Below are positions 29,460-63,905 of a stretch of 64,000 nt of DNA, piece by piece. Below the pieces are notes generated by a model. The model was not told the DNA's origin. It saw nothing but the letters and a program-made list of their open reading frames with translations, and did no database searches. Made by a program: the position numbers and the translations under genes. The DNA is from Pseudobdellovibrionaceae bacterium. Lineage in GTDB: Bacteria; Bdellovibrionota; Bdellovibrionia; Bdellovibrionales; Bdellovibrionaceae. The number at the start of each line of letters is the position of its first letter. The stretch's first letter is position 1. The stretch is taken from positions 80,523-144,522 of the forward strand of contig JAEUWH010000011.1 of NCBI GenBank assembly GCA_016785955.1. The letters are read 5' to 3'.

Positions 29460-29535
29460 TGGGGTATCGCCAAGTTGGTAAGGCAATAGATTTTGATTCT
29501 ATCATTCGGAGGTTCAAGTCCTCCTACCCCATCCA
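29460..29535 (+). tRNA. tRNA-Gln (anticodon TTG)
   Basis: A full cloverleaf is visible: acceptor stem TGGGGTA/TACCCCA, D arm, anticodon arm ATAGA-TTTTGAT-TCTAT with anticodon TTG, T arm GGAGG-TTCAAGT-CCTCC, discriminator T and encoded CCA (29533-29535). Its 3' end is the attachment site of the conjugative element. The downstream sequence in the empty site would be AATTTTTTTCC, now found at the right end (63831-63842), which would supply the tRNA with an oligo-T transcription end. Confidence 0.97.
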
Positions 29536-31241
29536 ATTGTCAATCTATTCGAACCATTGAATGAAAAAAAAGCCGAAGCGGAATTATCCGCCTCAGCTCT
29601 TTTATTTTGTTCTTTCGTAACTTCTTGAAATCGCTTTAAATTTTCGTGACCTTTATCAACGTTTTCCTGTCCAACAAAGTAGTGAATTTTGAAAGACTGC
29701 GGCAGGACTTCTACTTTTTTTACCAACCTCCGAATGACCTGATTTCTTAAATCCGAGTTCTGCTCTTTCGAAAGTATACCCTTTAGTGTCTTACAGAAAG
29801 ACTCGTAACTTTGAAAAGTGACCGGAAGGTCGTTCACTATCCCCCTTGCACGGACTTCCGCCAAGTTTGCTTCCGCCTCGTTTTTTAATCCTTCCAGCTT
29901 CTGCATTTGAGCATAAATTGGATCAGGAGAAACACCCTTAGGTAACTTAGACAAGTGCTCAGCAAGAGCCTCCATTTGTTTTGAAATTGCCTTAGCATGT
30001 TTCGACAAAGACTCTTCCTCCTTCAAAGAAGGATTCGCTACGTGAAGCTCATTAGCTCTTTCTACAATCTTCCTAATTGCTTCCGGCCTAGTTAACATCC
30101 CCATGACCTTTTCAAGAACTATTGGCTCAACTCGATTTGCTAGAATTCTATGAGGTTGGCAGGTGAATATTTTTTTGTTTAGGAATCCTTGCTTTTTTGT
30201 AGCCCAACTATGTTCGTAATAAGGTACTTTTCCCGAGTTTCCATGGGCAGACTTTCCAACAAGACTTTGATTACAAGTTCCACAGACACAAAGACCTGAA
30301 AGCAAAAATGGAAATCTTTCGTCCAATCGTGACCTAGCTTTGAATCGATTACTCTTAAGCATCCCTTGGACTTTTTCGAAATCACTTTCACTTATAATTG
30401 CAGGCCAAACAGCTTTGAAAAACTCTTCTTCACCGTCAGAATTGCGAACAGTCTTCAGACCTATATAGGCTCTATTGGTCAGCATTCTATATAATATCTC
30501 GATTGTGAATTTTCCGTTTCTCTGAGGTACGCCATTTTTCCTAAAAGTGCGATTTAGCTGATAGCCTTTACTAGCAAGAATTTTCCCAGCCGCATTGAGG
30601 GTTTGTTCTCTAATAAACGTGGCATACGCTTCCCTGACTATTTCGGCCTCGTCTTCGGCGATTTCTAAATGGCCTCTTTTTTCTTCGGACTTTTTGTATC
30701 CCCAAGGTATAGATCCACCATTAAACAGGCCTCTCTCTGCCCTCGCTCTAAAGTTATACCGAACTCGTTCCGAAACTTGTTTTCGCTCAAATTGAGCTAT
30801 GTTTGCCAAGGTCATCAGGACCATTTCCCCAGCAGCACTTGTTGTATCGAATTGTTCGCGCAAGCTCTGAAACTCGCAATCATGCTCCCTCATTAAATCC
30901 CAAATTTCGCAAAAATCTTTTATATTACGAGAAAGTCGAGAGAGTTCAGTAACCATCACTAAGGAAATATCGCCTTTAACGATAGACTTTAGAAGTCTTT
31001 GCAACTGAGGCCGGTTGGTGTCCTTCCCTGATTTAGCGCGATCAATGTAAACATCAACAACTTCTCCCCAATGCTCTTCAAAATTTCGAAATTGAACATG
31101 ATGTCTAAGACGCTGCTCCTGACTTTTAATGGAGCCTTCAGGGTTACTTGCCTGCTCCTCTGTCGAAACACGAATGTAAAGAGCGATTTTGTGAGCGGAT
31201 TTTTTTTGCTTTAAACTTTTTTTGGTCAAGCAGTCCTCCAA
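29514..31241 (-). CDS. Large serine recombinase (integrase), truncated by integration
   Basis: This 575-residue recombinase has the resolvase domain with nucleophile Ser26 (YIRVSTEEQ) and conserved ELSRLSRN, then a recombinase domain, a Cys4 zinc ribbon (CVCGTC ... FTCQPH) and a coiled-coil rich end. Its last codons run through attL into the tRNA-Gln 3' end, which supplies the TGA at 29514-29516. In the excised circle the frame instead continues from IGWG into 68 residues now found at 63615-63821. So the integrated form lacks a helix-turn-helix tail. It is the last gene of the transfer operon and overlaps the preceding gene by 16 bp. Confidence 0.92.
   Translation of the reverse strand: MEDCLTKKSLKQKKSAHKIALYIRVSTEEQASNPEGSIKSQEQRLRHHVQFRNFEEHWGEVVDVYIDRAKSGKDTNRPQLQRLLKSIVKGDISLVMVTELSRLSRNIKDFCEIWDLMREHDCEFQSLREQFDTTSAAGEMVLMTLANIAQFERKQVSERVRYNFRARAERGLFNGGSIPWGYKKSEEKRGHLEIAEDEAEIVREAYATFIREQTLNAAGKILASKGYQLNRTFRKNGVPQRNGKFTIEILYRMLTNRAYIGLKTVRNSDGEEEFFKAVWPAIISESDFEKVQGMLKSNRFKARSRLDERFPFLLSGLCVCGTCNQSLVGKSAHGNSGKVPYYEHSWATKKQGFLNKKIFTCQPHRILANRVEPIVLEKVMGMLTRPEAIRKIVERANELHVANPSLKEEESLSKHAKAISKQMEALAEHLSKLPKGVSPDPIYAQMQKLEGLKNEAEANLAEVRARGIVNDLPVTFQSYESFCKTLKGILSKEQNSDLRNQVIRRLVKKVEVLPQSFKIHYFVGQENVDKGHENLKRFQEVTKEQNKRAEADNSASAFFSFNGSNRLTIGWGRRT
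29524..29556. other. attL: core repeat plus left attP arm
   Basis: The 15-bp core (29524-29538) covers the tRNA acceptor 3' strand, CCA and AATT. The following 18 bases (29539-29556, GTCAATCTATTCGAACCA) are the inverted partner of 63801-63818, matching at 16 of 18 positions. The predicted crossover is at the central CA, 29530-29531. Confidence 0.85.
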
Positions 31242-31450
31242 TGATTTTTATCTGCGTCATTGCAATTTGCAAAGACACTTCGGTTAAGTTCACCGTTCAT
31301 TGAGTACTGTTGAATTGGGCCAAGCCATTGACCTTGATTACTGCAAAAATGAAAATATAAAACTTCGGCGATTTCATCAAGCAGTTTATCGTAATGCTCG
31401 ACGGCAACTTCAATCATCTCCGGAGGCGTCGTAACTTCCCATTTCGCCAC
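31226..31450 (-). CDS. Small hypothetical protein in the transfer operon
   Basis: This 74-residue acidic protein has no Cys cluster, signal peptide or recognisable domain. Its start ATG touches the stop of the RHH-like gene, and its end overlaps the integrase start, so it is translationally linked to both. It could be a directionality or regulatory factor for the integrase by position only. Confidence 0.6.
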   Translation of the reverse strand: MAKWEVTTPPEMIEVAVEHYDKLLDEIAEVLYFHFCSNQGQWLGPIQQYSMNGELNRSVFANCNDADKNHWRTA

Positions 31451-31878
31451 TAAGCCTCCTCTCCATTTTCTAAGTTTCCAATAAATTGTTCATTTGGATT
31501 TAAAGGCACATCAGCTTTTCGAGTTTTTTTTGTCTTTGCGACGGAATCTTTCTTGTCGTCCTTCGTTTTATTCCTTTCTTCAACTATTTTAATATTTATA
31601 CTTTCGCCTCGAGCTTTAGCTAAAGTCGCAGTTTTCAAAACCCATTTAGCGTGTTCTACGCTATCGTAGAATTTATCCTGAAGAGATTTTAGATCTGCTT
31701 CAGATAACAAATCAGGAGCAGAATCCAGGAGCCAATGAACTATATCTGCGCGACTAGCCTTCACTCCTGGTTTGCTTTCATTTAATTGTTCTTTCCAGCG
31801 CGACACTTTCTCAAGCATCGCAGGAATGAGCGTAATCCTATCTGGATGCTTCTGTTTCTTTTTACCTACTGTATCCAT
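31450..31878 (-). CDS. RHH-like accessory protein (possible relaxosome component)
   Basis: This 142-residue protein has an N-terminal stretch (PDRITLIPAMLEKVSRW, then SRADIVHWLLDSA) that looks like a ribbon-helix-helix beta strand plus two helices, as in TraY/MobC-type oriT-binding proteins. The C-terminal half is highly charged (Lys/Asp/Glu) and probably disordered. Its position between the lipoprotein and integrase genes fits DNA processing. No specific family is claimed. Confidence 0.5.
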   Translation of the reverse strand: MDTVGKKKQKHPDRITLIPAMLEKVSRWKEQLNESKPGVKASRADIVHWLLDSAPDLLSEADLKSLQDKFYDSVEHAKWVLKTATLAKARGESINIKIVEERNKTKDDKKDSVAKTKKTRKADVPLNPNEQFIGNLENGEEA

Positions 31879-32129
31879 ACTGATTGCTCCTCTATTTCAT
31901 AGACCCAATGACCTTTGATAAAACGTTTGCCTTCAACTTTATCTTGCTGCCAATATTTCTTAACTTTTGGAGACTTTAGAAATGGAGATTCAGAATCTTC
32001 AATTTCGATTCGTTCTGGTTGGGTGGTTGCTGACGTTCTTTTACTACTATTTGCACAACCTATTTGGAAAAAGGCTATATTAATAAAAATAAGAATAATG
32101 AAATACAAAAAAAAAGCTTTCTTTATCAT
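31866..32129 (-). CDS. Small lipoprotein of the transfer operon (VirB7-like by position)
   Basis: This 87-residue protein has a lipoprotein signal ending at Cys25 (FFQIGC), a polar linker, and a short conserved-looking end (KKYWQQDKVEGKRFIKGHWV, then YEIEEQSVWI). Small lipoproteins of this type stabilise VirB9/VirB10 outer-membrane cores. The gene lies after the replication-relaxation gene, not in the usual virB7 position, so the role is inferred. Confidence 0.5.
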   Translation of the reverse strand: MIKKAFFLYFIILIFINIAFFQIGCANSSKRTSATTQPERIEIEDSESPFLKSPKVKKYWQQDKVEGKRFIKGHWVYEIEEQSVWIQ

Positions 32130-32158: not shown

Positions 32159-33058
32159 CTAGGAAATTTTGATAAGATTTGAAAATGGAGTAGATTTTAA
32201 ATAGGTAGCTAGATCGGGATTCGCGGAATCGAACAAATTTTTCGATGAGATTGATTTATAAGGCGTTTTAGAAATATCCAAATGGCACCACCTCCGTCCC
32301 GGTACCGACAAAGTTCCCTGAGTTATTTCCAACAATTCGCCAAGTGATTTGCGATTCACTTGCTCAAGCAATGGATAAGAGTTCAATCCATAAGTAATCA
32401 AATTAGGTATGGAAAAGAAAACATGCTTAGAAGTTGTAGTCCCCAATCTAGTTTTTATACTACTTAGTATTTTCTCCGCCATTGAAAGCGATGGCACAAA
32501 CCAAACGACTCTAGTAATGTTTTCCGAGTCCTGATATTGGGTAGCAATAGATTCATATTTTGCGATGGCTTTTAGATTAATCTCTACTTCAATAGCGAAT
32601 AGTTTTTCAGTGTTAGCATTTCTCCAAATTCCATCTGGTCGTCTAATTAGCTCGAAAGGGAACCATTCAGGTAAGTTTTCAAGATTATGCCTTTTGATTT
32701 CCTCATCTGTCAAAATTGACAAGCCACTATAAAGATTCGGCCAACTATCAACGTAACTTGCCGATAAAACGATTAGGTCGTGCAACGGAGACTCAGACCC
32801 ATAGCCCGGTATTTTCAATTGAGGCATTTGATCTTTCAAAACATTGTATCCATTTACTGATAGTGTCCATGCATAGCCTGAATCCCCAACTCTGACACTT
32901 TTAATATGATTCGAACTCTCAAGTTTCAGAAGACGCTGATAGCAAGTTTTTAAACTTGCAGACTCGAATTCCGAAAGCCAGATAGCTCTAGTAGTTAATA
33001 ATTTATGCTTCCACAGGGTTCTAAAGAGGTTCGCATCTCGGGGAAACATTATTTTCAT
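32159..33058 (-). CDS. Replication-relaxation family protein (candidate DNA-processing protein)
   Basis: This 299-residue protein has a winged-helix N-terminus (LFRTLWKHKLLTTRAIWLSEF, then TCYQRLLKLESS, then YAWTLSVNGYNVL) followed by a nuclease-like core with RRPDGIW and FAIEVEINLKAIAKYESI, the RPD...E-x-E pattern of replication-relaxation proteins. In other elements these act near the transfer or replication origin. No classical HUH relaxase was found elsewhere in the element, so this may be the protein that prepares DNA for transfer. It overlaps the coupling-ATPase gene by 4 bp. Confidence 0.6.
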   Translation of the reverse strand: MKIMFPRDANLFRTLWKHKLLTTRAIWLSEFESASLKTCYQRLLKLESSNHIKSVRVGDSGYAWTLSVNGYNVLKDQMPQLKIPGYGSESPLHDLIVLSASYVDSWPNLYSGLSILTDEEIKRHNLENLPEWFPFELIRRPDGIWRNANTEKLFAIEVEINLKAIAKYESIATQYQDSENITRVVWFVPSLSMAEKILSSIKTRLGTTTSKHVFFSIPNLITYGLNSYPLLEQVNRKSLGELLEITQGTLSVPGRRWCHLDISKTPYKSISSKNLFDSANPDLATYLKSTPFSNLIKIS

Positions 33059-34455
33059 TTGCTACTCATTTCCATTGCTGAGCTATTTGACACCTTGAAC
33101 TTCTCGATTAAAGCTTCTGCCTCCTGCGTACTCAAGAGCGGGGTTTGAATCTCTGTCATTTTCGGCCCCTCTTTCCAGATCGCTCTTCCTGGAATAGATG
33201 GCAAGTCAGTTGCTCTACCGTTTCCAAGTACGCTAATGCTCGAACTATCATTTTGCATTTGGAAGCAAATGACTCCAACCAAGTTCGCTTTAACTTGAGG
33301 ATCAAGTGACTTTGAATCCGGACGTTGGGTTGCCACGATCAAATTAATCCCAACGGCCCGTCCTTGTCGTGCGATCAAACTCAATATCCTTCGGGCCTGA
33401 ATGATTTTTGAGGAATCTGCGCCTCCACCTGCTAAAAACAACTCCGCTATCTCATCTACTACAACAAGTCGTCGACTTCTAAGAAAAGTTCCTTCAGAAG
33501 AATTCTCTTTAATATTGGCGATGTCTTTTACTTTGTTCTTTTTTAAAATTTCCATTCTTCGAATTAGTTCTTTCTGCAAGGAGTTTAACTCTTCAATTGC
33601 TCTCTCAATGTTTGGGATGACAGAAACTCTCGGTAGCTCTTCAAACAACTGAAATTCCAATCCTCCTTTTAGGTCAATGAGTGTAAACTTAGTGTTTTTT
33701 GAGTTTAAATAAAACGTCGTGATTAGATTTCGTAAGAAGGTAGACTTCCCTCCGCCTGTTTGTCCCGCAACTAACAAATGAGGAGTAGAATCCAGATCTC
33801 CGGTAACTTCCTTCGATCGTGTAGCTCCGACAAAAAAAGATTTGCTATCTAGAAGTTCCGGATCTCGAAAAGAAACCTTAGTTGGAAGCGTAAGTGATGA
33901 ATATATAATTTCGACAGTACCTTTAAGTCTGCTCTCCCTGATATCATCAATATATGAGTTTAAACCACTTTCGATACGGTCTCTTGCCTTCACAAAATCT
34001 CCCACTGCATAGGATGACCTATTGAGGACAAGCTTATTTGTTTCTTTATCTACAGGATAAATACCAGCTATTGTGGGCACCTTTCCAAAAACATTTCTGA
34101 GACCAGCAATTGCTAACGACTCTTCAATTCTCTTTTTTAGCCGCTGAATCTTTGCCCCTTCATACAGCCCCCAAACAATAAATGGAAAAACTAGATATCC
34201 GGAAATTTTAATAAATTTTCCGAAACCCGACATGGGATTCAAAATTTCTCCAAACAGCTTTCCCAGTATCAACAGATCCAATTTAGTTGCATGGAATAGG
34301 AAAAGTGTCGATGAAGAAAGCAAGATTGATTCGAACGGAATTGTGTTAAATTTAATGGAATGAATTAAACCCCGGACTGGGAGTGACATTGCTTCATAGA
34401 ACTGAACGAAATTCATTTCACTCAACATTCGTGAATACGAATTCTCCTTTCCCAT
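33055..34455 (-). CDS. FtsK/SpoIIIE-like coupling ATPase
   Basis: The protein has 466 residues from the ATG at 34453-34455 (an upstream ATG at 34503 would overlap virB10 by 47 bp). There are two N-terminal hydrophobic segments. The ATPase motor has Walker A GQTGGGKST, Walker B LVVVDEIAEL, and GQGRAVGIN/ATQRPD-type motifs (ARQGRAVGINLIVATQRPD). It lacks the FtsK gamma domain. It most likely replaces VirD4 as the coupling protein that feeds DNA to the secretion channel. Confidence 0.82.
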   Translation of the reverse strand: MGKENSYSRMLSEMNFVQFYEAMSLPVRGLIHSIKFNTIPFESILLSSSTLFLFHATKLDLLILGKLFGEILNPMSGFGKFIKISGYLVFPFIVWGLYEGAKIQRLKKRIEESLAIAGLRNVFGKVPTIAGIYPVDKETNKLVLNRSSYAVGDFVKARDRIESGLNSYIDDIRESRLKGTVEIIYSSLTLPTKVSFRDPELLDSKSFFVGATRSKEVTGDLDSTPHLLVAGQTGGGKSTFLRNLITTFYLNSKNTKFTLIDLKGGLEFQLFEELPRVSVIPNIERAIEELNSLQKELIRRMEILKKNKVKDIANIKENSSEGTFLRSRRLVVVDEIAELFLAGGGADSSKIIQARRILSLIARQGRAVGINLIVATQRPDSKSLDPQVKANLVGVICFQMQNDSSSISVLGNGRATDLPSIPGRAIWKEGPKMTEIQTPLLSTQEAEALIEKFKVSNSSAMEMSSK

Positions 34456-34456
34456 A

Positions 34457-35302
34457 TTACTTATCCCCACTGAAAAAAATAAATATTGGAGTCCCCGATT
34501 CAACTCGTAATGAAACCTTCTGATTTTTTAGATCTTCCATCATATATTTTGCATGATCTAACGACGCATGTGCTGTTCCGTTTAATAGTGCGTTCGACAA
34601 AGAGTTATTCTCCACGCTAGCGCCGTTTTGACCCGTTCTTTCTTTTAACCCCTCCGCTACACCTCCAACAAAATTTAGGCCGATTGACGCTCCTAACTTA
34701 ATCGAATCTGAATTTAGCTTTGATGCCTGCAATCCTACGAGTTCGTCTACGGAATCAATTGCGACAGCACTGGTTTCAAACACTTCTCTTTCATTTACTA
34801 CTCCTTTGAAAAATTGAATCGAAACTCGGGATTCCAAACTGGTACCCACGCCAACTAAAACTGATCCAGCAGGAATTCTTACGTCTCCATCGACTAAAAC
34901 ATCTTCTATAAGTTTCGCCTTTACGGGACCGTCTGTTGCTGCAGTAACCAACACTGCACGGACCGTAGTCCCTGGAAGAACTTTGTTTCCTCCCGGTCTC
35001 GAAATTAAACTTGGCCCAGGGTACACAGTATGACCGCTCGTTGTTCGCCTTTTTTCAACTCTTACTGCCACAGCCTTATACTCTGGAATTGCAATTTGAT
35101 TTGACTGTGAAGTCGATCCAGACTTCCAAAGCGAAGTTTTTTTTCGTTGTGGTCGATCTGGCTCACCCAAACAAATCGCTAATAGGCCGATAGTCCCGAA
35201 AATCAGTGTAACTGTTTTAACTAGTTTTCGATTTAGCACCTTTTTTTTACCGTCTTCTTCAAACAGAACTTTATTAAGTCTTTCTTGGATAGCGTTCATC
35301 AT
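34457..35302 (-). CDS. virB10: VirB10/TraB-like secretion channel protein
   Basis: This 281-residue protein has a cytoplasmic start, one membrane helix (LVKTVTLIFGTIGLLAICLG, about residues 28-47), a linker, and the TrbI/VirB10 beta-barrel domain with LPGTTVRAVLVTAATDGPVKA and VDGDVRIPAGSVLVGVG. It spans inner to outer membrane in the core complex. Its start overlaps the VirB9-like gene end. Confidence 0.85.
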   Translation of the reverse strand: MMNAIQERLNKVLFEEDGKKKVLNRKLVKTVTLIFGTIGLLAICLGEPDRPQRKKTSLWKSGSTSQSNQIAIPEYKAVAVRVEKRRTTSGHTVYPGPSLISRPGGNKVLPGTTVRAVLVTAATDGPVKAKLIEDVLVDGDVRIPAGSVLVGVGTSLESRVSIQFFKGVVNEREVFETSAVAIDSVDELVGLQASKLNSDSIKLGASIGLNFVGGVAEGLKERTGQNGASVENNSLSNALLNGTAHASLDHAKYMMEDLKNQKVSLRVESGTPIFIFFSGDK

Positions 35303-37812: not shown

Positions 37813-40236
37813 CTATTTTTCTTTTTTAGAAATCGAATTTAGGACGCCAAAAGGCATCTCTACCGAAAGTGACTCAACGATTTTCGACAACGAATTATCA
37901 GGACTCTCAGATTGAAGTTTTTCAAAGTGAGCTACATCCCTCGGGTCAGTTGTTGATATCCAATATTCAGCCGGTGTAGGCTCGAAAGCTATTACGCTTC
38001 GATTTCCCCCTGAAATTAGAAATGCTTCAGAAAACTTACCTCTGTCCTGATAAAGCGTGGATACTAGTTGCGCTTCTGTTTCGTTCAGTTGCAGCACCTC
38101 AGCCAACCGTTTCTGATTCGCACCCTTTTGCATTAACACGATTTTGGTTCCAGAATTTGGCAAAATTGCATTGGCAACTTTACTTCGGGCGAAATCGTCA
38201 ATGTCCTGGGAAATCGCGATTACACCGGCGTAATATTTTCGAAAGGTTCTAAACACGTTTCCGATGAAATGGCTACCAGCTTCATTCTCAAGTATTTGCC
38301 AGCATTCATCGAACAGGAGCATTTTTTTTCGTCCCCGATCTTTCTGAACCTCTCGCCAAACTAAATCAGTAATAAGGAATAGAGAAACGGCCTGTAAATC
38401 GGGGACGCTGTCTAATCCTTTCAAATCAAAAGAAATTAAATCGCTTTTTAGTTCGATATTAGTTTTCCTATCGATAAACTTTCCGTAACTAGAATTTCCG
38501 GTCCACGAGTTTAAAATTCGACTTAGACGTCTAATATTGCTTTCCGAGTGTTCGCCCAATAATGTTTTCAAGTCTGAAAGAATTGGATTCGCGTTTTGCT
38601 CGTAACATTTCAAAATACATTCCTCAAGTAACGCTTTATCCAGCTTGCTTAGGCCACTAGTTTCATTTTCTTTCGTCATAAGTTCTATTAAGTTGACTAA
38701 GTATTTAACTTTTTCACCAGTTGGGGCAGTTTCGCTTTCAGAAAGATCAAATGGATTGATACTTAGGTTCATATCTAATCCAAGTTGAACTGATTCACCG
38801 CCCATTAATTTGCAAAGTCTTCCGTAAGAATTACCAATGTCTACGATGTAAATCCTCGGAGATTCTTTCAACAATTGAAGAAGAACTAAGTTCGCACAAA
38901 AGGATTTTCCACTACCGCTACCACCGCTAATTAACACATTATGATTGGTTAGCTCTGTCGAAAAGGGGTCGAAACTTACAACAGAACCTAACCTAGAGCG
39001 CAAAAGTACGCTGGGAGACGAATGTCCTCTCCATGGGCCGTACACAGGCAGAAAATCGGATAAGTTAGTGGTTTTGATTTTCTTTTTGCGTTCATTGGCT
39101 TTTGCATTTGGAACAGCAATCTCATTAAAAATATCAAAGGCAGCTAAAGTTTCCTGCATAGCCTCGCCGCCAGCAAGCTGACGCACCTTCGAAAGTGTTT
39201 TTGCCACCTGGGAATCCAGGTCGGTCTCACTTTCGCTTGTCAATAAAACCTGCAAGCTGAAGTTAAAAACTTTCTCCCCTTGAGAAATTAGATCTGCTAG
39301 CAGACTTTCAATTTCCTGAAGCTTGGCCTCACTTTCAAGATCGGCGACTCCATTTCTTTTTCCTCTCGCAAGTGAGTATGCAATTCTTCTGTCTGACTGG
39401 AGGGATTCAAATTCCTTCTGTTGATCGGGCACATGAATTGATAAGAACAGCTTAGAATTAAAAGGAAGTTCTCGTAACACTTGAGCCATAGCCGCGAACG
39501 TCACGTCAGGGAATGACTTTAAGCTTACTACTCGATAGAAATTGCTTCCCATGCAAAACCCTTTTTCAGTTGTCTGAACATCCGAGAAAATGAGGTTAGG
39601 CACAATAAACTCAGGATCGTAATAACCCATTGGCAGCTGCTTAGATCTTTCAGGATTCCACTGAGTATAAATCTGCTCTAAAATCTGCGCCTGGCTCAAA
39701 ACGTTTGCTCGGAATCCCATTTGAATTAGATTTCGGGTGATACTTTCTCTTAACTGTCTTGTTTGATTTACCTCGGCCTCAAACTCATTTTCTGCAAGTG
39801 CAGGAAAAAGTTCCGGTTTCTTTAGCAGACTAGGCCCGTTCTCAAGCAAATGTTTAGACGGTCTTCTAACAAACAATTTCAGTCCATGAAAAGGTACAAA
39901 TCCATTTAGGTCGTGGTTGCGCCATCGGCGCAGTCGAGATCCTAAAAGCACTTTAACTTCCTCATTGATGCATGAATTAGCTAGCTTCTCGTGTTCAGAG
40001 AATATCGATTCATTTCCAGGTTTGATCTCTTGTATGAATTGAAGATCCAAATGGGGAGGTAAACTATTTAAGAACTGATCTAAACTGTAGGCCAATTCGT
40101 TAATCTGATCAGCGGTCCATGTGCTAACGTCAATATAGTTAACGTCCAAACCAAAACCAATTGATCCATCTTTAAATACAACAAAGTCATCTTCAAAGCC
40201 CCATAACTGTATTTTTTCAGCAAGATTTCCACTCAT
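37813..40236 (-). CDS. virB4: VirB4/TraC ATPase
   Basis: This 807-residue conjugation ATPase has Walker A GGSGSGKSF, Walker B KMLLFDECWQIL and a further conserved ISQDIDDFARSKVANAIL. The N-terminal CagE/TrbE-like part precedes the motor. It energises pilus assembly and substrate transfer. It is the longest gene of the element besides czcA, and its start overlaps virB3 by 4 bp. Confidence 0.93.
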   Translation of the reverse strand: MSGNLAEKIQLWGFEDDFVVFKDGSIGFGLDVNYIDVSTWTADQINELAYSLDQFLNSLPPHLDLQFIQEIKPGNESIFSEHEKLANSCINEEVKVLLGSRLRRWRNHDLNGFVPFHGLKLFVRRPSKHLLENGPSLLKKPELFPALAENEFEAEVNQTRQLRESITRNLIQMGFRANVLSQAQILEQIYTQWNPERSKQLPMGYYDPEFIVPNLIFSDVQTTEKGFCMGSNFYRVVSLKSFPDVTFAAMAQVLRELPFNSKLFLSIHVPDQQKEFESLQSDRRIAYSLARGKRNGVADLESEAKLQEIESLLADLISQGEKVFNFSLQVLLTSESETDLDSQVAKTLSKVRQLAGGEAMQETLAAFDIFNEIAVPNAKANERKKKIKTTNLSDFLPVYGPWRGHSSPSVLLRSRLGSVVSFDPFSTELTNHNVLISGGSGSGKSFCANLVLLQLLKESPRIYIVDIGNSYGRLCKLMGGESVQLGLDMNLSINPFDLSESETAPTGEKVKYLVNLIELMTKENETSGLSKLDKALLEECILKCYEQNANPILSDLKTLLGEHSESNIRRLSRILNSWTGNSSYGKFIDRKTNIELKSDLISFDLKGLDSVPDLQAVSLFLITDLVWREVQKDRGRKKMLLFDECWQILENEAGSHFIGNVFRTFRKYYAGVIAISQDIDDFARSKVANAILPNSGTKIVLMQKGANQKRLAEVLQLNETEAQLVSTLYQDRGKFSEAFLISGGNRSVIAFEPTPAEYWISTTDPRDVAHFEKLQSESPDNSLSKIVESLSVEMPFGVLNSISKKEK

Positions 40237-40599: not shown

Positions 40600-40884
40600 C
40601 TAATTTACTAATCCACGAATAAAATTAACGATACTTTGGCTACCAAAGCCTACAAATGCTCCAATGATAGCTAAAATTAAATGTGACCGAGCGGATGGAG
40701 ATCCCATCACGAATGAAAAACCCGCGAATACGAGCCCCAAAATCGCTACCAAGGGCAAGATGGTCGATACTAATTTATCCTGCACGTTTGAAAGAGTAGA
40801 CTCGACACTTGCCAACGCAAGTTCGGGAAAAAAGTAAAATAACCCAATGCTAAGAAGAAAGACCAATTTTTTATTAAATTTCAT
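40600..40884 (-). CDS. VirB2-type pilin
   Basis: The protein has 94 residues from the ATG at 40882-40884, chosen because GGAGG lies just upstream. A long signal segment ends near ALA-S. Two hydrophobic helices follow (LPLVAILGLVFAGFSFVMG and LILAIIGAFVGFGSQSIVNF) joined by a short polar loop, the VirB2/TrbC pilin layout. It should form the conjugative pilus. Confidence 0.82.
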   Translation of the reverse strand: MKFNKKLVFLLSIGLFYFFPELALASVESTLSNVQDKLVSTILPLVAILGLVFAGFSFVMGSPSARSHLILAIIGAFVGFGSQSIVNFIRGLVN

Positions 40885-40895
40885 GTAAACCTCCA

Positions 40896-53364: not shown

Positions 53365-54672
53365 TCAATATTTAATTTGTCTACTTTTCCTGACCCAAAC
53401 GGAATAAACAGCAAGTCCTAATATCACAAACGATACTGACAATACTATGAGCTTTGTGAAATCTTGCGTGGAAGGCAATAGCGCTCCAGCACCATATAAT
53501 CCCAACGTAGCAATTCCCGTAAGAGCATTAGCAAATCCATTCACCTCTCCTCGCACTTCAGGCCTTATGCCAACTTGTCTAATCTGCATTTCGCCTAAGC
53601 TAAAGCCATAGAGTCCAATTCGAGAAAGGAGAATTAATGCCAAGAAACCAATTTGTCCGGTGCGGTTGTCCATATAAAAAAACATTAGAGCGGTAATAAC
53701 TGATGCACTTTGAAACGCCAAAAAGATATGGGCAGTTTTTATCAGCCCAAGCTTCTTATTTACCCAAGGAAATAATAACGTGGCACCTAACCCGAAAAAT
53801 GCGCCTAGTCCACGAAAAATTCCAATTTCCCATTCAGGAAGCTTCCACCCGTCAGTCAAATAGGCGGTGAGTAAGACCCCGTGAGGACTTAATACGGATA
53901 ACCATAATAGCGCATAGGCGATAACCGCTAGCGAGACTGGCTCCGAGAAGAAAGATTTCCATCCAGAAGTAATATTTTTCACGAAAGACGAGTTCTTAAC
54001 TCTCTCAATATTAATCTCTTTATTTTTTAAATCAGGTCGTTCATCAAAAATCGATTTAAGTAAAATATATTCGGGAACAAATGAAAATACATTCCATAAA
54101 CCAATTAGTAAAAATCCAAATAATGGAGCCAAAGGTGACTCTAAAACTAAAAGCAACCCAGCTACTACCGGCGCAGTCACCTCGGTCAATAGGTCGACTT
54201 GTCGCAATCTACTGTTAAACGCGGCCAATTCATTTTCGGTAAAACTTGATGGAACTAAATCATTCGCAATGGCAATATCCATAAAACTTGAACCTAAGCT
54301 CGCGACCACGCCTCCAAGGACAAGACCAACAAATGCAAAAATGAAAGGCCCTTTACCCCACATTGGCTCGATCGAGTTCAGCATTGAAATAAAATAAATC
54401 GAAAACAATCCTAAAAGCACGCCTACCAACTGAAGCAGTATTCCTAGTCTAGCAGCGTTGAAGCGATTAATCCGATCTATGAGGGAGGTTAACCGTGGGA
54501 GGAATATAACTAGTGCCAAACGAATTAAAAAATAATAAAATGCGGCTACTCGCAACTCTCCAGGTAATATTTTAAGTAAAATTAGCGGTACCGCAAAATC
54601 CCATGCCTGATCCCCTGAACGCGTCAGAAGTCGACCAAGCAATAATCTGTGCGAAAACGCCATTTTAATCAT
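53365..54672 (-). CDS. Ferroportin-family metal exporter
   Basis: This 435-residue polytopic protein, about twelve helices, has ferroportin-specific segments: an N-terminal SGDQAWDFAVPLILL (cf. GDRMWHFAVSVFL of ferroportin) and a late IGLYGFSLGEMQIRQ followed by RGEVNGFANAL. Ferroportins export Fe2+ and related divalent metals, and a Bdellovibrio homologue is a structural model for the family. It is preceded by an RcnR-like regulator gene 20 bp upstream on the same strand, so metal-controlled expression is likely. Confidence 0.78.
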   Translation of the reverse strand: MIKMAFSHRLLLGRLLTRSGDQAWDFAVPLILLKILPGELRVAAFYYFLIRLALVIFLPRLTSLIDRINRFNAARLGILLQLVGVLLGLFSIYFISMLNSIEPMWGKGPFIFAFVGLVLGGVVASLGSSFMDIAIANDLVPSSFTENELAAFNSRLRQVDLLTEVTAPVVAGLLLVLESPLAPLFGFLLIGLWNVFSFVPEYILLKSIFDERPDLKNKEINIERVKNSSFVKNITSGWKSFFSEPVSLAVIAYALLWLSVLSPHGVLLTAYLTDGWKLPEWEIGIFRGLGAFFGLGATLLFPWVNKKLGLIKTAHIFLAFQSASVITALMFFYMDNRTGQIGFLALILLSRIGLYGFSLGEMQIRQVGIRPEVRGEVNGFANALTGIATLGLYGAGALLPSTQDFTKLIVLSVSFVILGLAVYSVWVRKSRQIKY

Positions 54673-54692
54673 AAAATCAAAAGCCTCTTATT

Positions 54693-54965
54693 CTATTTCC
54701 AAAAACTCTTTAAAATATCTGTAACTTCCCGCCCTGCTTGCGCGGCATCCTTCTTTGTCGGGGCCTCCACGATATGTTCTAGTATATGCCCCTCAAGTAT
54801 ATCTCCCATCATTCCTGTTAATGCTCCCCGACTAGAACTTAACAATTGCAAAAGTTTGTAGGGATCTTCTTCCGCATTTAAAATTTGCGATACTGCATCC
54901 AACTGTCCTTTGATCCTATTCACACGCGCGATCAATTTATCTTTATCTCTTATTGTATGGCTCAC
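54693..54965 (-). CDS. RcnR/CsoR-family metal sensor lacking Cys35
   Basis: This 90-residue all-helical repressor (DUF156 family) opens as MSHTIRDKDKL, like RcnR. The ligands His3, His60 (EGH) and His64 (LEH) are present, but position 35, a Cys in RcnR, CsoR and FrmR, is Pro. A different metal or effector preference is inferred. It heads an operon with the ferroportin-like exporter, and a likely operator lies in the divergent promoter region at 55017-55030. Confidence 0.85.
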   Translation of the reverse strand: MSHTIRDKDKLIARVNRIKGQLDAVSQILNAEEDPYKLLQLLSSSRGALTGMMGDILEGHILEHIVEAPTKKDAAQAGREVTDILKSFWK

Positions 54966-55016
54966 CCCAAACCCTCCTTGATTCCAATTCTGAGACAGCC
55001 TTGTCTCGCTATATGA

Positions 55017-55030
55017 TATAGGGGAGTATA
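55017..55030. promoter_or_regulatory. Probable RcnR-like operator
   Basis: TATA-GGGGAG-TATA resembles the G-tract site flanked by inverted AT bases used by RcnR/CsoR-family repressors. It lies between the divergent regulator gene and the His-rich protein gene. A separate inverted repeat GAGACA/TGTCTC sits next to it, near 54992-55007. Confidence 0.6.
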
Positions 55031-55109
55031 CTATATTTTTTCTCAGTTTAAAACTGTTTAATAATTACGCTTGACCAAAAACAACTTAATGCACTACCAT
55101 TAAGGCATC

Positions 55110-55511
55110 GTGAAGATGTTGTACGTTTTTGCATTAGTTATGCTCCACTTGTTTGCTCTTTCTAAAGAAGGATATATCGCCCTTCCTAAAATCGAGAGCG
55201 AATCGTCGCAAGATCACGTTCATTCTGATGAACATGCTGATCCTACGCAAAGCCACGAACACGATGAAGAGTCCAACAATGTTGCTGATTTTTCTTATCA
55301 CGAACACACCCACAGACATTCTCCTGATGAACCTGAGCATACACACACTCACCATCATTCAGTAGCTTCTGGACAATCAGTTCCTTTTCTTTTTGGATCT
55401 AACTTTCAATATGTAGTTCAATTTAATCAGGGTCTTCAATTTGGAAGATTCAATGCTACATCTATTCAAAGTCCTTATTTAGACTCAGTTTTTCGCCCTC
55501 CGATCGCCTAA
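55110..55511 (+). CDS. His-rich secreted protein of the metal cluster
   Basis: This protein of about 133 residues (GTG start at 55110 or ATG at 55116) has a hydrophobic N-terminal segment. Residues 35-88 are crowded with His, Asp and Glu (for example HVHSDEHADPTQSHEH and EHTHTHHH). This composition suits periplasmic metal buffering. The C-terminus is unlike known domains. Confidence 0.7.
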   Translation: MKMLYVFALVMLHLFALSKEGYIALPKIESESSQDHVHSDEHADPTQSHEHDEESNNVADFSYHEHTHRHSPDEPEHTHTHHHSVASGQSVPFLFGSNFQYVVQFNQGLQFGRFNATSIQSPYLDSVFRPPIA

Positions 55512-55659
55512 TTTTATTTACACCAAATCTTATTTAACTATTTGTGTTTTCGCGCAGATTTTCGCGCGCTCGGCCTAGTTAAACCATTCGATTTGGCGTC
55601 TTTTATTCTACCAATACATTTTAAATAAATTTCCGCAGCATTGCTGTGAAAGGCGACTT

Positions 55660-56907
55660 ATGTCTTTACGACCACAATTGTTTATTATGGTTTTAGGCTG
55701 GACGGCTATTGGAATAGCACAGTCTAGCTCCGCCAACTGTGACACTTTTTCTAATTATAAAGATGTCATCCGTTGCGCTATTGAAAACCATCCAGATGCT
55801 CAACAAGCTAAACTTCTCTTTAAACAAAATGAGAACTTAGTTGGTATTGCCGAGCAACGTCCTAACATAGAGCTAGATTCTCAGGTATTAGGAGGAAGGG
55901 TTGGCGACGATAGCTACCAATACACTCAAATAAATTTGGCCCACACTTTTGAATTAGGCGGCAAACGTGATGCCCGCATACGCAGATCTGAAGCACAGGT
56001 GCGAAATAGCGGATTTGATCTAAAGCTAGTTCAGGAACAAATCTATCTAAAGACTTATCTAGCGATGGTTCGCATTCGCCAAATTAATGCCGAGATCGCT
56101 GTTTACGATGATGCTTTAACGACGTTTGAGCGTATCCAAAAGCAGTATCAGTCAAGACCGCGCATGACTCCTGAGCAAAAGGCCACTTACGCAATAATGG
56201 ATATTGCGGCTAGTGATTATCGACTACGTCGACGTCCGCTAGTTAACGAGGTACGCGAGAACGAAAAGTTTCTAGAAATGGCTACCGGGAAAAAGTTTGA
56301 TGTCAGAAAAGATTTTCTTCCGACATTCAGAAAAAAATGGCCGACTGTTTCTTCCTCGGGCAACTCTGATACGACGAGAAGTCTTACCTTACAGAAATCA
56401 ATAACGGATCTTGAGGTCGCACAAGCCGAACTTAAAGAAGCAGAAAGTTTAGCCTGGCCCGATTTGAAGCTCGGCCCCACTTTCGAGACGCAATCAGCAG
56501 GTAGCCAGAAGACTAACTCGTTTGGCTTAAACTTATCGTTTGCAATTCCATTGTTCCACACGAACGGCGCCGGAAAAGCTTATGCGACTGCTGGAATCAG
56601 TCGCGCGCAAGTCGCGGTTGCAAATGCAAAAAATATCGAAAGCCAAAGACTGCAACTGCAAATTGATAAATACAAAGATGCAGTTAATTCGCTTGAAAAT
56701 TCACTCTCGTCTACGGAGCTAGACAGAAAACATCGAGATGTTGAGAGTTCATTCGGTAGCGGAGTTATTCCAAGCTCACTTGTAATCGAAATCCACCGTC
56801 AAATGGCGGATTACGTAAAGAGTTTAAGCGAGCAAGAAAATACGGCCATCGAAGCGCTAGCAAATATTTATTCCATCGAAGGCCGCCTTCTATCGGAGGG
56901 ATTATGA
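55660..56907 (+). CDS. czcC: CzcC-like outer-membrane efflux protein
   Basis: This 415-residue protein has a signal peptide (cleaved near SSA-N, residue 25) and a TolC-fold body made of two repeated helical halves, with typical ALENHPD-like start (CAIENHPDAQQA). It forms the outer-membrane channel of a CzcCBA metal efflux pump. Its stop overlaps the next start as ATGA. Confidence 0.85.
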   Translation: MSLRPQLFIMVLGWTAIGIAQSSSANCDTFSNYKDVIRCAIENHPDAQQAKLLFKQNENLVGIAEQRPNIELDSQVLGGRVGDDSYQYTQINLAHTFELGGKRDARIRRSEAQVRNSGFDLKLVQEQIYLKTYLAMVRIRQINAEIAVYDDALTTFERIQKQYQSRPRMTPEQKATYAIMDIAASDYRLRRRPLVNEVRENEKFLEMATGKKFDVRKDFLPTFRKKWPTVSSSGNSDTTRSLTLQKSITDLEVAQAELKEAESLAWPDLKLGPTFETQSAGSQKTNSFGLNLSFAIPLFHTNGAGKAYATAGISRAQVAVANAKNIESQRLQLQIDKYKDAVNSLENSLSSTELDRKHRDVESSFGSGVIPSSLVIEIHRQMADYVKSLSEQENTAIEALANIYSIEGRLLSEGL

Positions 56908-57323
56908 GAAATAATAAAATAAACATTCTTTTACTATGCACTGTCATAACAATCAGTGCGGTATCTCAAGAAGAAGCGACCGGTTTCCGCGCAGGTCCAA
57001 ACATGGCAGCCACAGAGGCCAGTTTAAAAGATGGCTTTAAGCTAACGGACAAGGCTAAAGAAGTTATCGGTGTAAAAACCAAATCTATTGGATCAAAGCC
57101 ATACTCTATACCAAATGAGGCCCTTGTTCACTACGGCGACAAAGTTGGCGTCTATCGTTTACGCGATGGTTGGTTCAAATTGATTGAAGTTCAAAAAACA
57201 AATAAAGACAGCGGAACATCTACCATTTCAAGTTCCGATCTAAATGAAAAAGATCAAATCGCCATTGAAGGCGTAGCCCTTTTACGTGTCAGTGAAATGG
57301 ATATCTTCGGAGGTGAAGAATGA
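56904..57323 (+). CDS. Shortened CzcB-like periplasmic adaptor
   Basis: This protein has only 139 residues, where normal CzcB adaptors have 350-500. A signal peptide is followed by a part resembling only the C-terminal membrane-proximal and beta-barrel end of an adaptor (IPNEALVHYGDKVGVYRL ... DQIAIEGVALLRVSEMDIFG). The lipoyl and alpha-hairpin domains are absent. ATGA overlaps on both sides show it is in an intact operon, so it is probably a true short form. Confidence 0.68.
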   Translation: MRNNKINILLLCTVITISAVSQEEATGFRAGPNMAATEASLKDGFKLTDKAKEVIGVKTKSIGSKPYSIPNEALVHYGDKVGVYRLRDGWFKLIEVQKTNKDSGTSTISSSDLNEKDQIAIEGVALLRVSEMDIFGGEE

Positions 57324-60300
57324 TCAGCAAGATAATTGCCTTTTCAATATATAATCGCATCGCAGTTCTGGCCATAACGTTGGCTATCGGTATTGCGGGA
57401 TGGTTTACATTTGAAAACCTACCTATTGATGCCGTTCCGGATGTTACGAATAATCAAGTTCAAATTAACAGCGCCGTTGATGGTTTATCACCAGAAGAAA
57501 CTGAACGAAATGTAACTTTCGTTATCGAAACCGCAATGCGTGGTCTTCCCGGTGTTACGGAAGTGCGATCTTTAACACGGTTTAACTTGTCGCAAGTTAC
57601 AGTTATCTTTGAAGATGAGGTCGACATCTATCGGGCTCGTCAATTGGTTGCCGAACGCCTTCAATCGGTATCTGGCTCTCTTCCTCCCGGAGTTTTACCA
57701 CGTCCGGGTCCCGTAAGTTCTGGACTTGGTGAGATAGTTCACTATTCCGTTGAAGCCGATAAAATTGAAGAAGGGCAAAAACGAATTGAACAACTCATGG
57801 AAATGCGGACGATCCAAGAATGGTTTGTTAAACCCCGCCTGTTAACTGTTAAAGGCGTAGCGGAAGTAAACACCATTGGCGGATTTGAGCGGCAATTCCA
57901 TATCCAACCGAATGCGGCTAAAATGGCTCGTTACGGAGTTCAATTCTCTGAGATTATCGAAGCCATTGAACGAACTAATAAAAATGTCGGCGGTGGCTAC
58001 GTCCAGCAAACTGGGGAACAATTCCTTGTTCAAGCTGTGGGTCTTTTAAAGGACATCGAAGACATTCGCGCGGTTCCTTTAAAATCGCTCGAAACATTTC
58101 AGACGATCACAATTGGTGATGTGGCCGATGTCGCCCTAGCAACTGAATTACGTTCTGGTGCCGGTCTTGTTCGCTCTCGCGAGGCAGTTGTGGGCACAGT
58201 CATGATGTTAATGGGTGAAAACAGTCGAACAGTTGCTATGCGTGTTGATGAGCGTTTAAAGGAAATCCAGCAAGGCTTACCTAAAGGCTATAAACTTGAA
58301 ACTCTCTACATTCGTTCAGACTTAGTAAGCTCAACAATCGGTACCGTGGAGCACAATCTGCTAACTGGTGCTTTTCTAGTTATCGTGATCCTTGCGTTGC
58401 TGATGGGTAACTTGAGAGCCGCCATTATTACCGCAATTACTATTCCACTCTCTCTACTGATTTCATTTATCGCGATGAGATATTTTAAAATCTCCGGCAA
58501 TCTGATGAGTTTAGGTGCGCTAGATTTCGGAATTATTGTCGATGGAACGGTTATTCTCCTGGATCACTGCGTGCGGGTGATCCAAGAGCGTTCTGCGGCC
58601 ATGAAAAGAAATTTAACCAAAGAAGAACTACAGAAAGCGGTTTATGACGCCACTGTTCACATCCGTACTGCCGCCGGTTTCGGTCAATTAATCATTGTCG
58701 TAGTGTTTCTTCCAATTTTCTCTCTCGTTGGAGTAGAAGGAAAAATGTTTCGCCCAATGGCGGCAACGTTTATCATCGCGATTCTTGCGGCTTTAGTTCT
58801 TTCATTTACGACTGCGCCTGCTTTGGCAAGTTTACTAATGACAGGAAAAGTTGCCGACAAAGAGCCATGGTTGATGAGAAAACTTGAGCACTTTTATGCC
58901 CCGATATTAAATTTCGTTCTGAAGTTTAAAGTAGCAACAATCTCCATTGGCGTCATCTCAACGATCATTGGTGCGATCCTGTTTGCTCGTCTGGGCGGAG
59001 AGTTCTTGCCACAGTTAGATGAAGGCACTCTACTCGTCCAAACAACTCGACCTGTGAATGTAAGTATCGATCAATCGGTGGTGCTTCAGGCTAAGACGGA
59101 AGAAATCGCGTCTCAATTTCCGGAAGTGGCTTATACATTCTCAAAAATTGGTACATCCGAAATTGCGAACGACCCTATGGGCGTTCACCAAGCTGATACC
59201 TACGTTATGTACAAGCCCGAAAAAGAATGGCCACTAATCGAAGGTAAACGCAGAACTCGCGGTGAAGTTGCAAATGCCATCATCGAAAGACTTGATGCTG
59301 AATTACCTGGTCAATCCGTACTTAGAAGCCAGCCGATTCAAATGCGCTTTAATGACTTATTGGAAGGTTCTAAATCGGACGTTGCGGTTAAACTCTACGG
59401 TGATGATATGGAAACTCTTTCATCGATCACAAAGCAGATTGCTGCAATCGTCGAAAAAATCGAGGGTGCCGGGGAAGTGGAAACCGAGCTTCGCGGTACT
59501 TCGCCACTATTAAAGGTCACTCCGAAGAAAGAAATGCTAAGAAAAATGGGGATCTCTACTCAACAAGTTTTACAAACTGTTGGTGTTGCTCTTGGAGGTT
59601 CTGAGGCTGGAATTCTTTATGAGGGCGAGCGTCGATTTCCGATCTTTGTCAGGTTGAGTGAAAAACAACGATCAGACCTTGATGGAATTCGTAATTTGCC
59701 AGTGGGCATTGGTAGCAATGCCACAGTTCCGCTAAGCGAAGTAGCTGACATCAAGTTTGATGCGGCCTACGGAACAATTGTTCGTGAAGATGGAAAACGT
59801 CGTGCGGCCGTTATGATTAATCCGCATGGCCGAGATACTGAAAGCTTTGTTAATGAAGCTAGAGCGGCCGTTGAACAACAAGTAAAATTACCGGAAGGTT
59901 ATTACATTGAATGGACTGGAACATTCAGAAATCTTCAGGAAGCTAAATCACGCTTGTTAATCTTAGCCCCATTGGCATTGCTTTTAGTTCTTCTAATGAT
60001 CTACGCCGCATTCAAAAGCGTTGGTGAAACATTGCTTATTTTTGCATGTGTACCGATGGCCCTTGTAGGCGGGGTACTTGGTCTAATGATGAACGGCCTT
60101 CCGTTTAGCATTACTGCGGGTGTTGGCTTTATCGCCTTATCCGGTATTGCAGTTCTAAATGGGGTCGTACTGATGAACTACTTCAACGACCTCAGAAAAG
60201 AACGTCTAGATTCAAAAACAATTGTTACTCGCGGTGCTTTACTGCGCCTACGTCCGGTAATGATGACAGCACTAGTAGATATTTTTGGATTCTTGCCAAT

Positions 60301-60460
60301 GATGCTTTCAACAAGCATCGGTGCGGAAGTTCAAAAACCTCTAGCATCTGTCGTTATCGGTGGAATCGTATCATCGACTCTACTAACCCTACTCGTTTTA
60401 CCTGCGCTCTATTTAGCGTTTGAAAAATACATGAAACACGAAACCAGCGAAGCCAACTAA
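57320..60460 (+). CDS. czcA: CzcA-like heavy-metal RND pump
   Basis: This 1046-residue proton-driven exporter has twelve helices and two large periplasmic loops. The TM4 motif of the divalent-cation (Zn/Co/Cd/Ni) class is at D402-FGIIV-D408 with D415 at the usual Glu415; the monovalent-copper CusA type lacks this. It should export divalent metals with CzcC and the short adaptor. Confidence 0.92.
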   Translation: MISKIIAFSIYNRIAVLAITLAIGIAGWFTFENLPIDAVPDVTNNQVQINSAVDGLSPEETERNVTFVIETAMRGLPGVTEVRSLTRFNLSQVTVIFEDEVDIYRARQLVAERLQSVSGSLPPGVLPRPGPVSSGLGEIVHYSVEADKIEEGQKRIEQLMEMRTIQEWFVKPRLLTVKGVAEVNTIGGFERQFHIQPNAAKMARYGVQFSEIIEAIERTNKNVGGGYVQQTGEQFLVQAVGLLKDIEDIRAVPLKSLETFQTITIGDVADVALATELRSGAGLVRSREAVVGTVMMLMGENSRTVAMRVDERLKEIQQGLPKGYKLETLYIRSDLVSSTIGTVEHNLLTGAFLVIVILALLMGNLRAAIITAITIPLSLLISFIAMRYFKISGNLMSLGALDFGIIVDGTVILLDHCVRVIQERSAAMKRNLTKEELQKAVYDATVHIRTAAGFGQLIIVVVFLPIFSLVGVEGKMFRPMAATFIIAILAALVLSFTTAPALASLLMTGKVADKEPWLMRKLEHFYAPILNFVLKFKVATISIGVISTIIGAILFARLGGEFLPQLDEGTLLVQTTRPVNVSIDQSVVLQAKTEEIASQFPEVAYTFSKIGTSEIANDPMGVHQADTYVMYKPEKEWPLIEGKRRTRGEVANAIIERLDAELPGQSVLRSQPIQMRFNDLLEGSKSDVAVKLYGDDMETLSSITKQIAAIVEKIEGAGEVETELRGTSPLLKVTPKKEMLRKMGISTQQVLQTVGVALGGSEAGILYEGERRFPIFVRLSEKQRSDLDGIRNLPVGIGSNATVPLSEVADIKFDAAYGTIVREDGKRRAAVMINPHGRDTESFVNEARAAVEQQVKLPEGYYIEWTGTFRNLQEAKSRLLILAPLALLLVLLMIYAAFKSVGETLLIFACVPMALVGGVLGLMMNGLPFSITAGVGFIALSGIAVLNGVVLMNYFNDLRKERLDSKTIVTRGALLRLRPVMMTALVDIFGFLPMMLSTSIGAEVQKPLASVVIGGIVSSTLLTLLVLPALYLAFEKYMKHETSEAN

Positions 60461-61617: not shown

Positions 61618-61625
61618 TTAGCCCA

Positions 61626-61667: not shown

Positions 61668-61711
61668 AAGCATTGGCCAAGGATGGCCATATTTAGTGAT
61701 AGGAAGATAAA

Positions 61712-62744: not shown

Positions 62745-62756
62745 AAAGGAGAACGT

Positions 62757-63152: not shown

Positions 63153-63160
63153 GACAGAAA

Positions 63161-63370: not shown

Positions 63371-63386
63371 TAAATCTCGATCAAAA

Positions 63387-63409
63387 GGGAGAGTTGCTAT
63401 CGCTCTCCC
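63387..63409 (-). terminator. Intrinsic terminator for the right-end minus-strand genes
   Basis: GGGAGAG (63387-63393) pairs with CTCTCCC (63403-63409); on the minus strand it is followed by TTTT. It ends transcription of the 55-residue gene. In the excised circle it would be the end of the whole transfer-integrase transcript. It may also stop the plus-strand cargo genes. Confidence 0.7.
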
Positions 63410-63420
63410 CTATGATCCAA

Positions 63421-63588
63421 CTAATCAGCTAATCTGCGATTCCATTTACCAAGTTTAAAATTCTGTTGATCCTTGTGCGCTTCCACTGCCTGCTTGGCCA
63501 GGTTTAGGGCAGCAGGGGCTAACTGCCCAGCCAGCAAAAGACTGATCGCGATCGTCATTATTCCGATAACAAATTTTGAAATTCCCAT
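63421..63588 (-). CDS. Small membrane protein next to the integrase tail
   Basis: The protein has 55 residues from the ATG 63586-63588, with GGAGG at good spacing. One N-terminal helix (FVIGIMTIAISLLLAGQLAP) is followed by a short charged part. In the integrated form it has no evident promoter of its own. In the circle it follows the full integrase gene in the transfer operon. An exclusion factor or toxin is possible by position only. Confidence 0.6.
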   Translation of the reverse strand: MGISKFVIGIMTIAISLLLAGQLAPAALNLAKQAVEAHKDQQNFKLGKWNRRLAD

Positions 63589-63614
63589 GTAAACGAACCT
63601 CCGTTTGCTCAAAT

Positions 63615-63905
63615 TTATCGCATCTGAGCCTGCGCGGCCTTCCGCAAAGCGCGCTGAACTCCGGATAAACTGAGGTTAAAATGCTTAGCAAGTTGCTCAT
63701 AGGTCATTCCTTGTTCCTTTTGCAGTCGAGCAACCGCGTTAAAATCGTTGAACTTGATTGGCTTAGCCCACCCAAATTGGTACTCCTCTGTTACGATGAG
63801 TGGTTCGACTAGATTGTCGCTACCCCATCCAATTTTTTTCCGACAATAAATCGAGTTTATAACCCAGATTCGCGGATAAAGCGCGTTAATTGAATAGATT
63901 TTCAT
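63615..63905 (-). CDS. Detached C-terminal HTH segment of the integrase
   Basis: The frame reads through attR. Residues encoded by 63835-63905 come from flanking chromosome; those encoded by 63615-63821 (68 residues) are the element's own. They include a helix-turn-helix (GMTYEQLAKHFNLSLSGVQR then ALRK), as at the C-terminus of many serine recombinases. At the core both this frame and the integrase frame encode IGWG in the same phase, so excision joins them into a 640-residue protein. As it stands here it is probably not a working gene. Confidence 0.75.
   Translation of the reverse strand: MKIYSINALYPRIWVINSIYCRKKIGWGSDNLVEPLIVTEEYQFGWAKPIKFNDFNAVARLQKEQGMTYEQLAKHFNLSLSGVQRALRKAAQAQMR
63801..63834. 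other. attR: right attP arm plus core repeat
   Basis: TGGTTCGACTAGATTGTC (63801-63818) is the inverted partner of 29539-29556 (16 of 18). The core CTACCCCATCCAATT (63820-63834) follows. Sequence to the right (TTTTTCC...) should be chromosome once downstream of tRNA-Gln. Positions 63906-64000 show no gene. Confidence 0.85.

Follow-up and report, generated by a model that had tools for sequence, protein, structure and literature searches.

The 64,000-nt stretch of Pseudobdellovibrionaceae DNA analyzed here (the window) holds an integrated element at a tRNA-Gln gene. The attachment site attP of this element probably lies inside its own large serine recombinase (LSR) gene. A long enzyme ending in a helix-turn-helix (HTH) tail is predicted to arise upon excision; in place of this tail, integration likely leaves a few residues that the tRNA gene supplies. 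A first-pass annotation had claimed that the gene is split by the element's own integration, and analysis of the two ends confirmed this at the level of sequence. It shows one reading frame with two possible C-termini, apparently chosen by the physical state of the element. The features concerned are the following.

29460 to 29535, plus strand: tRNA-Gln(ttg), the integration target (tRNA call; present in all five genus relatives)
31241 to 29514, minus strand: LSR, integrated short form, 575 aa from TTG (open reading frame, ORF; Pfam domains)
29524 to 29538, no strand: attL core, 15 bp (sequence; overlaps the end of tRNA-Gln)
63615 to 63830, minus strand: recombinase tail (C-terminus), 71 residues plus stop, counted from the Gly of the core; HTH in the second half (ORF; HTH_24; predicted helices)
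63820 to 63834, no strand: attR core, 15 bp (sequence)

The core, CTACCCCATCCAATT, occurred exactly twice in the window, both times on the plus strand (29524-29538 and 63820-63834), with a core-to-core spacing of 34,296 bp. The attL copy lies in the recombinase ORF, in agreement with the earlier placement of attP within that gene. As also described in the first-pass annotation, the gene reads into tRNA-Gln and stops three codons past the core: the 575-residue short form ends in IGWG-RRT-stop, and RRT and the TGA stop come from the tRNA-Gln antisense strand. The translation start is uncertain (a database copy has 571 aa vs. 575 aa from TTG). The short form matched Resolvase (2.2e-34), Recombinase (1.2e-12), and Zn_ribbon_recom (2.6e-8), all above the Pfam cut-off. 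The YxRVST motif (Y22, R24, V25, S26, and T27) was invariant across 15 aligned members, and we take S26 to be the catalytic serine.

The claim of an in-frame 68-residue HTH tail 34 kb away at attR also held. When right end, core, and left end were joined, a single uninterrupted frame of 640 codons was obtained, with 68 residues past IGWG; the remaining two frames from the attR core reached stops after 4 and 7 codons. The window tail matched HTH_24 with 24.9 bits (cut-off, 21.9), and two AlphaFold models (single sequence and 18-row alignment) agreed on three helices in its second half.

The genome holding the window consists of 124 contigs (4.34 Mb). The bases following tRNA-Gln were unlike the element in all five genus relatives (up to 330 bases, judged by reading), and in three of the five the site was the same as the first 17 bases at attR (core plus 2). 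In one of these three (G059), the right flank of the window continued for 100 bases at 90%; this match is a dispersed repeat (G059 has 5 matches and the window's own genome 18) and therefore weaker proof than it appears. An assembly artifact as the source of the att pair was rejected because genus relatives have the tRNA-Gln site without the element. The dispersed repeat, approximately 140 bp long (window 63857-64000), begins just to the right of attR. Among 18 own-genome matches of the 166-bp right flank, 12 (itself counted) were at 98-100% identity.

The layout was followed in relatives of the recombinase. At E ≤ 1e-20, 1,286 protein relatives were found; a GSxxLTxG-like motif was present near the end of 75 of the 120 listed (regular expression), often preceding apparent antisense tRNA sequence (by eye). 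The first survey, of DNA fetched by relationship, comprised 40 LSR ORFs of at least 400 aa. The antisense 3′ end of a tRNA lay within the LSR frame in 30 of the 30 loci with a called tRNA, ten kinds of tRNA were hit, and 28 of the 30 frames shared one phase. The second survey was selected by LSR only from named genomes and comprised 65 loci with one LSR each, 59 of them with an LSR ORF of at least 400 aa. A tRNA was called for 41 of these 59, its 3′ end was inside the ORF in 40 of 41, and 39 of the 40 were in phase. When the 15 LSRs common to the first survey were removed, 29 of 30 were inside and 28 in phase. In both surveys LSR ORFs shorter than 400 aa were dropped, and tRNA calls alone were counted as targets. 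Homologs with a stop of their own near residue 575 had been named as the outcome contrary to the earlier claim; what was found instead is a frame that enters the tRNA (30/30 and 40/41).

The common phase is simply explained if the complement of CCA, TGG, spans a codon boundary: T would end one codon, and GG would begin a Gly codon. At the phase-matched loci, the seventh codon past the core was TGA in 15 of 28 and CGA in 13 of 28. We read these codons as T-loops with TTCAA and TTCGA, respectively; thus, the tRNA itself would often provide the stop of the short form. The surveys show that the predicted layout recurs throughout the bacterial phylum, at numerous tRNA genes. When genome contigs were searched for the LSR, a single-protein query gave no match and an alignment query gave 65 loci. 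Among 65 named relatives of the window recombinase, 54 were titled Bdellovibrio-, Bacteriovorax- or Oligoflexia-group bacteria. Two LSR relatives (L262 and L233) were in metagenome-assembled genomes labeled Lysobacteraceae and Aenigmatarchaeota, by transfer or mis-binning.

A profile built from seven tails was used to find tails of the first kind (type A; matches with E > 0.001 were dropped in the fetched-DNA counts). The profile matched in 69 of the 143 genomes of the class (E ≤ 0.01) and in at least 90 of 368 genomes of the phylum (E ≤ 1e-6; at most 15 candidates scored per genome). Tails opened at TGG in the integrase phase in 38 of 42 cases in the fetched DNA, in 25 of 26 in newly fetched regions, and in 19 of 20 in the LSR-chosen set, 13 of whose tails were repeats (10 of the first set and 3 of the newly fetched regions) and whose seven new loci all fit; by chance, T precedes 34% of Gly codons. 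Aligned at TGG, 38 tails had a median of 73.5 open codons in the integrase phase vs. 6 and 12.5 in the other phases, and the frame was open for at least 60 codons in 37/38 vs. 0/38 and 0/38; finding tails by a protein profile partly selects for openness of the frame, but not for its phase relative to the core. The tail as a chance ORF was rejected because the other two frames at these 38 tails close early. Tails carry a nearly invariant Trp. A second kind of tail (type B) matched in 52 of 143 genomes (E ≤ 1e-4); in locus L003 it consisted of a second stretch of Recombinase and a sub-threshold HTH_58 match. The 16 LSR-tail combinations listed had both parts on the same strand, with the tail at the far end; in some of them, a single LSR of an array was paired with more than one tail.

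Fused and diverging sequences tie the tail to the recombinase. P0122, a database protein from a 1,119-base contig, was identical at 145 of 150 positions to L005, a short form integrated at a tRNA-Met gene, through the core, and then continued into a tail. The genome of the window itself has an unbroken LSR-tail frame of 784 aa (L003), and partial fused frames were present in other loci; we infer that L003 and these partial frames are internal junctions of tandem arrays, or relics. Divergence of the LSR body was correlated with that of the distant tail (18 pairs; Mantel r = 0.90, 0 of 5,000 permutations), which shows that, as far as sequence divergence tells, the two travel together. Over tail codons 11-65, dN/dS was 0.20 in the integrase frame, and third positions differed at a rate of 0.284, compared with 0.139 and 0.101 for the two alternative frames. 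Both measures come from 16 non-independent pairs of closely related tails, restricted to pairs of 65-98.5% identity that align without gaps over 60 codons.

Two same-genome LSR C-termini found with one LSR query, L003 and G000:C84 (L143), were fused to tails of different types, which suggests that tails are exchanged when elements integrate in tandem. At one tRNA-Leu gene, L237 (G047:C35:91708-102436) had stacked units, with three tails and partial LSRs in 11 kb.

The joined ends of the element also have the symmetry of an attachment site, with the following arms.

29541 to 29556, no strand: attP arm, integrase side, CAATCTATTCGAACCA; its minus strand overlaps the codons of the GSN motif (sequence; dyad test)
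63801 to 63816, no strand: attP arm, tail side, TGGTTCGACTAGATTG; 15 of 16 positions form an inverted repeat with 29541-29556 (sequence; dyad test)

In the window, TGGTTCGA[A/C]TAGATTG was found on both sides of the joined ends as an inverted repeat. Across 18 pairs, 12.1 of 20 positions were complementary at one center vs. 3.5-5.9 at 19 other registers. Complementarity fell to 10.0 when tails were swapped between elements, and the observed sum was reached in 0 of 10,000 permutations. These results support the reading that the joined ends behave like a true attP, the putative circle junction. Between the integrase arm and the tRNA, complementarity peaked (9.8 of 20; 18 pairs) at a spacing 5 nt shorter. 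In serine integrases the zinc-ribbon motif is displaced by 5 bp between attP and attB (PMC3783163). The same 5-bp displacement was found in the 18 pairs, on attB on the tRNA side alone. The GGTTCG motif of the attP arms resembles the T-loop of the tRNA, which sits 5 bp nearer the center in attB. We infer that T-loop and CCA end may together form an attB half-site, which would account for the many different tRNA targets.

In the mechanism that we favor, the long form, which only the circle or tandem arrays would produce, would drive insertion at tRNA 3′ ends, and the crossover near the CCA end would sever the tail. The short form retains the catalytic, recombinase, and zinc-ribbon domains and likely still recombines, but it would be altered in DNA binding or control, for example, kept from inserting again or set free to excise. 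The gene would thereby encode the physical state of the element in its protein, and a C-terminal switch coded by the integration state is the role proposed for the tail. Evenly balanced in our judgment is a broader proposal of a phylum-wide class of such elements, with attP in the gene and with coding arms that mimic the T-loop so that nearly any tRNA serves. In this class the circle would give the long HTH-tailed integrator, the chromosome would give the short form, often stopped by the T-loop, and arrays would mix tails into hybrid recombinases.

Several observations weigh against the C-terminal switch. The joined junction was absent from the window's own assembly (up to 3 mismatches allowed), so that the circle was not seen. 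The search suggested in the first-pass annotation, for database recombinases of about 640 residues with this HTH tail, returned no long form with the window's tail among 126 candidates (E ≤ 10; 5.8 billion proteins); the same search with another tail returned two long forms, one of them identical to the query. The tail models were weak (pLDDT 69-71), Foldseek of the tail against the PDB gave generic HTH matches (best E 0.17), and across 18 tails each Pfam family matched at most 2, so known HTH families provide weak support. Two of the 30 LSRs in the first survey and one of 40 in the second (L228) were off phase, and at L235 the tRNA was outside the ORF. LSR ORFs without a called tRNA (10 of 40, four of them at piece ends, and 18 of 59) are uninformative. 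The tail profile was trained on the first tails, and the phylum scan was bounded by its 15 candidates per genome. Co-divergence is explicable by shared descent alone. The tail of P0122 is type A and that of the nearest fused frame upstream of L005 is type B, so that the nearest tail in an array is not necessarily the cognate one. Finally, the first 10 tail codons are constrained even at synonymous sites (pS 0.109), that is, as DNA, as expected of a binding site within the arm.

Circular forms were also sought in other records. Plasmid records included 46 with a distant LSR, none spanning 80% of the 784-aa L003. Phage records included 169 with a distant LSR, all with less than 60% identity, 45 of which span 80% of the 575-aa short form. 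No circular form of the LSR-tail family was found through LSR matches in the plasmid and phage records, where tails were not searched separately.

Among the alternatives, the one that survives best, although we regard it as doubtful, is a suicidal lock, in which only the long form would be active: the enzyme would lose its activity on integration, and excision would require a long form in trans, from an incoming circle or a tandem neighbor. Archaeal suicidal integrases are read as such a lock (PMC8371274), and arrays with fused LSR-tail frames could provide the long form. However, all three LSR Pfam domains remain in the short form, and ten listed phage LSRs align to it only up to residue 521-523, so that the lost part is not core enzyme. 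It is very unlikely that the tail belongs to a small HTH gene of its own at the right end of the element, encoding a repressor or directionality factor, whose frame runs into the core by chance. An in-frame ATG, GTG, or TTG lies upstream of the core in 20 of 42 tails (some being fused frames), and the window tail has an in-frame ATG at 63905, in the host flank. The other 22 have none, and in 5 of these the first internal start is beyond residue 35; the integrated state thus could not make these 22 tails from their first residue via a common start. With the start-less tails, the fused frames, and the single phase of nearly all tails, a separate gene was rejected. Least probable of all is that attP DNA alone matters and that the frame past it stays open incidentally, with no role for the protein: the arms do overlap the first 10 tail codons, which are conserved as DNA, but beyond the arm the dN/dS ratio, the third-position excess in the integrase frame, the near-invariant Trp, the predicted second-half helices, and the co-divergence with the LSR body all stand against it.

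The remaining genes identified in the element, all on the minus strand, are as follows.

32159 to 33058, minus strand: Replic_Relax-like protein near the recombinase (PF13814, E 0.0052, 17.3 bits, below the cut-off of 25.3)
33055 to 34503, minus strand: FtsK/SpoIIIE-type ATPase, likely the coupling protein (PF01580, 4.3e-25)
34457 to 35302, minus strand: TrbI/VirB10-like conjugation protein (PF03743, 1.4e-11)
37813 to 40236, minus strand: VirB4/TraG-type conjugation ATPase (P-loop_TraG, 3.7e-44)
40600 to 40896, minus strand: TrbC/VirB2 pilin (PF04956, 6.5e-9)
63421 to 63612, minus strand: 63-aa membrane-like ORF directly after the tail (no Pfam match; similar ORFs follow the L038 and L041 tails, by eye)

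With an integrase, att sites, and type IV secretion genes, the element classes by sequence as a putative integrative and conjugative element; the relaxase is represented by the sub-threshold Replic_Relax match alone. By eye, several small relatives had similar-looking Replic_Relax-like genes next to their LSR. In the circle, the long integrase and the 63-aa ORF may be co-transcribed. The window cargo (53365-60460) comprises a ferroportin-like transporter, a metal-sensitive repressor, and an RND efflux gene, and is likely for metal efflux. Small relatives measured down to approximately 3.5-4 kb from core to core, often with little besides the LSR and a Replic_Relax-like gene; their cargo, judged by eye, included toxin-antitoxin-like pairs and ATPases of possible defense type.

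Phage large serine integrases have attP outside the integrase gene, whereas here both attP arms are coding. The domains and the 5-bp zinc-ribbon shift are shared with such phage enzymes (LI/A118 integrase and phiC31; PMC3783163). Archaeal "suicidal" (SSV-type) integrases carry attP inside the integrase gene, which integration partitions, and self-disrupting recombinases are said there to occur exclusively in archaea (PMC8371274). The window LSR is like them in having attP in a gene that is split by integration; unlike those tyrosine enzymes, it is a bacterial serine recombinase that loses an HTH tail and not its core. It works like a suicidal integrase, yet falls outside that family by the tyrosine criterion. 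In mycobacteriophage integration-dependent immunity, attP lies in a key gene, and the free and integrated C-termini differ (PMC8092301, PMC9934374). Those phages split a repressor, which loses an ssrA-like degradation tag, and have a separate tyrosine integrase, whereas here the integrase itself is split.

In the ssrA islands of Dehalococcoides, the 3′ end of the LSR gene dsiB invariably overlaps attL (PMC3146451), an arrangement shared with the window LSR; the DsiB target is ssrA (tmRNA), whereas the called targets here are tRNA genes. In 2011 the authors suggested that dsiB may reach full function only as part of the circle or next to another island that supplies the 3′ fragment; the same passages offer a trivial explanation for the overlap too, and identify no tail. 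The novelty claimed in the first-pass annotation therefore stands in part: full function in the circle had already been suggested, and in the open-access literature searched neither the tail nor the T-loop/attP logic was found described.

For annotation, the finding is a warning that chromosomal copies can end in antisense tRNA, with the C-terminus of the circle form kilobases away. The T-loop-like arms suggest that a single family is usable on many tRNA genes, which is relevant to recombinase tools. The guess made for Dehalococcoides gains its missing 3′ fragment, in another set of elements. With natural long and short pairs that differ by the tail, it becomes possible to study what sets the direction of recombination by serine integrases. 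If the reading proposed here is true, gene-splitting integrases extend from archaeal tyrosine to bacterial serine enzymes.

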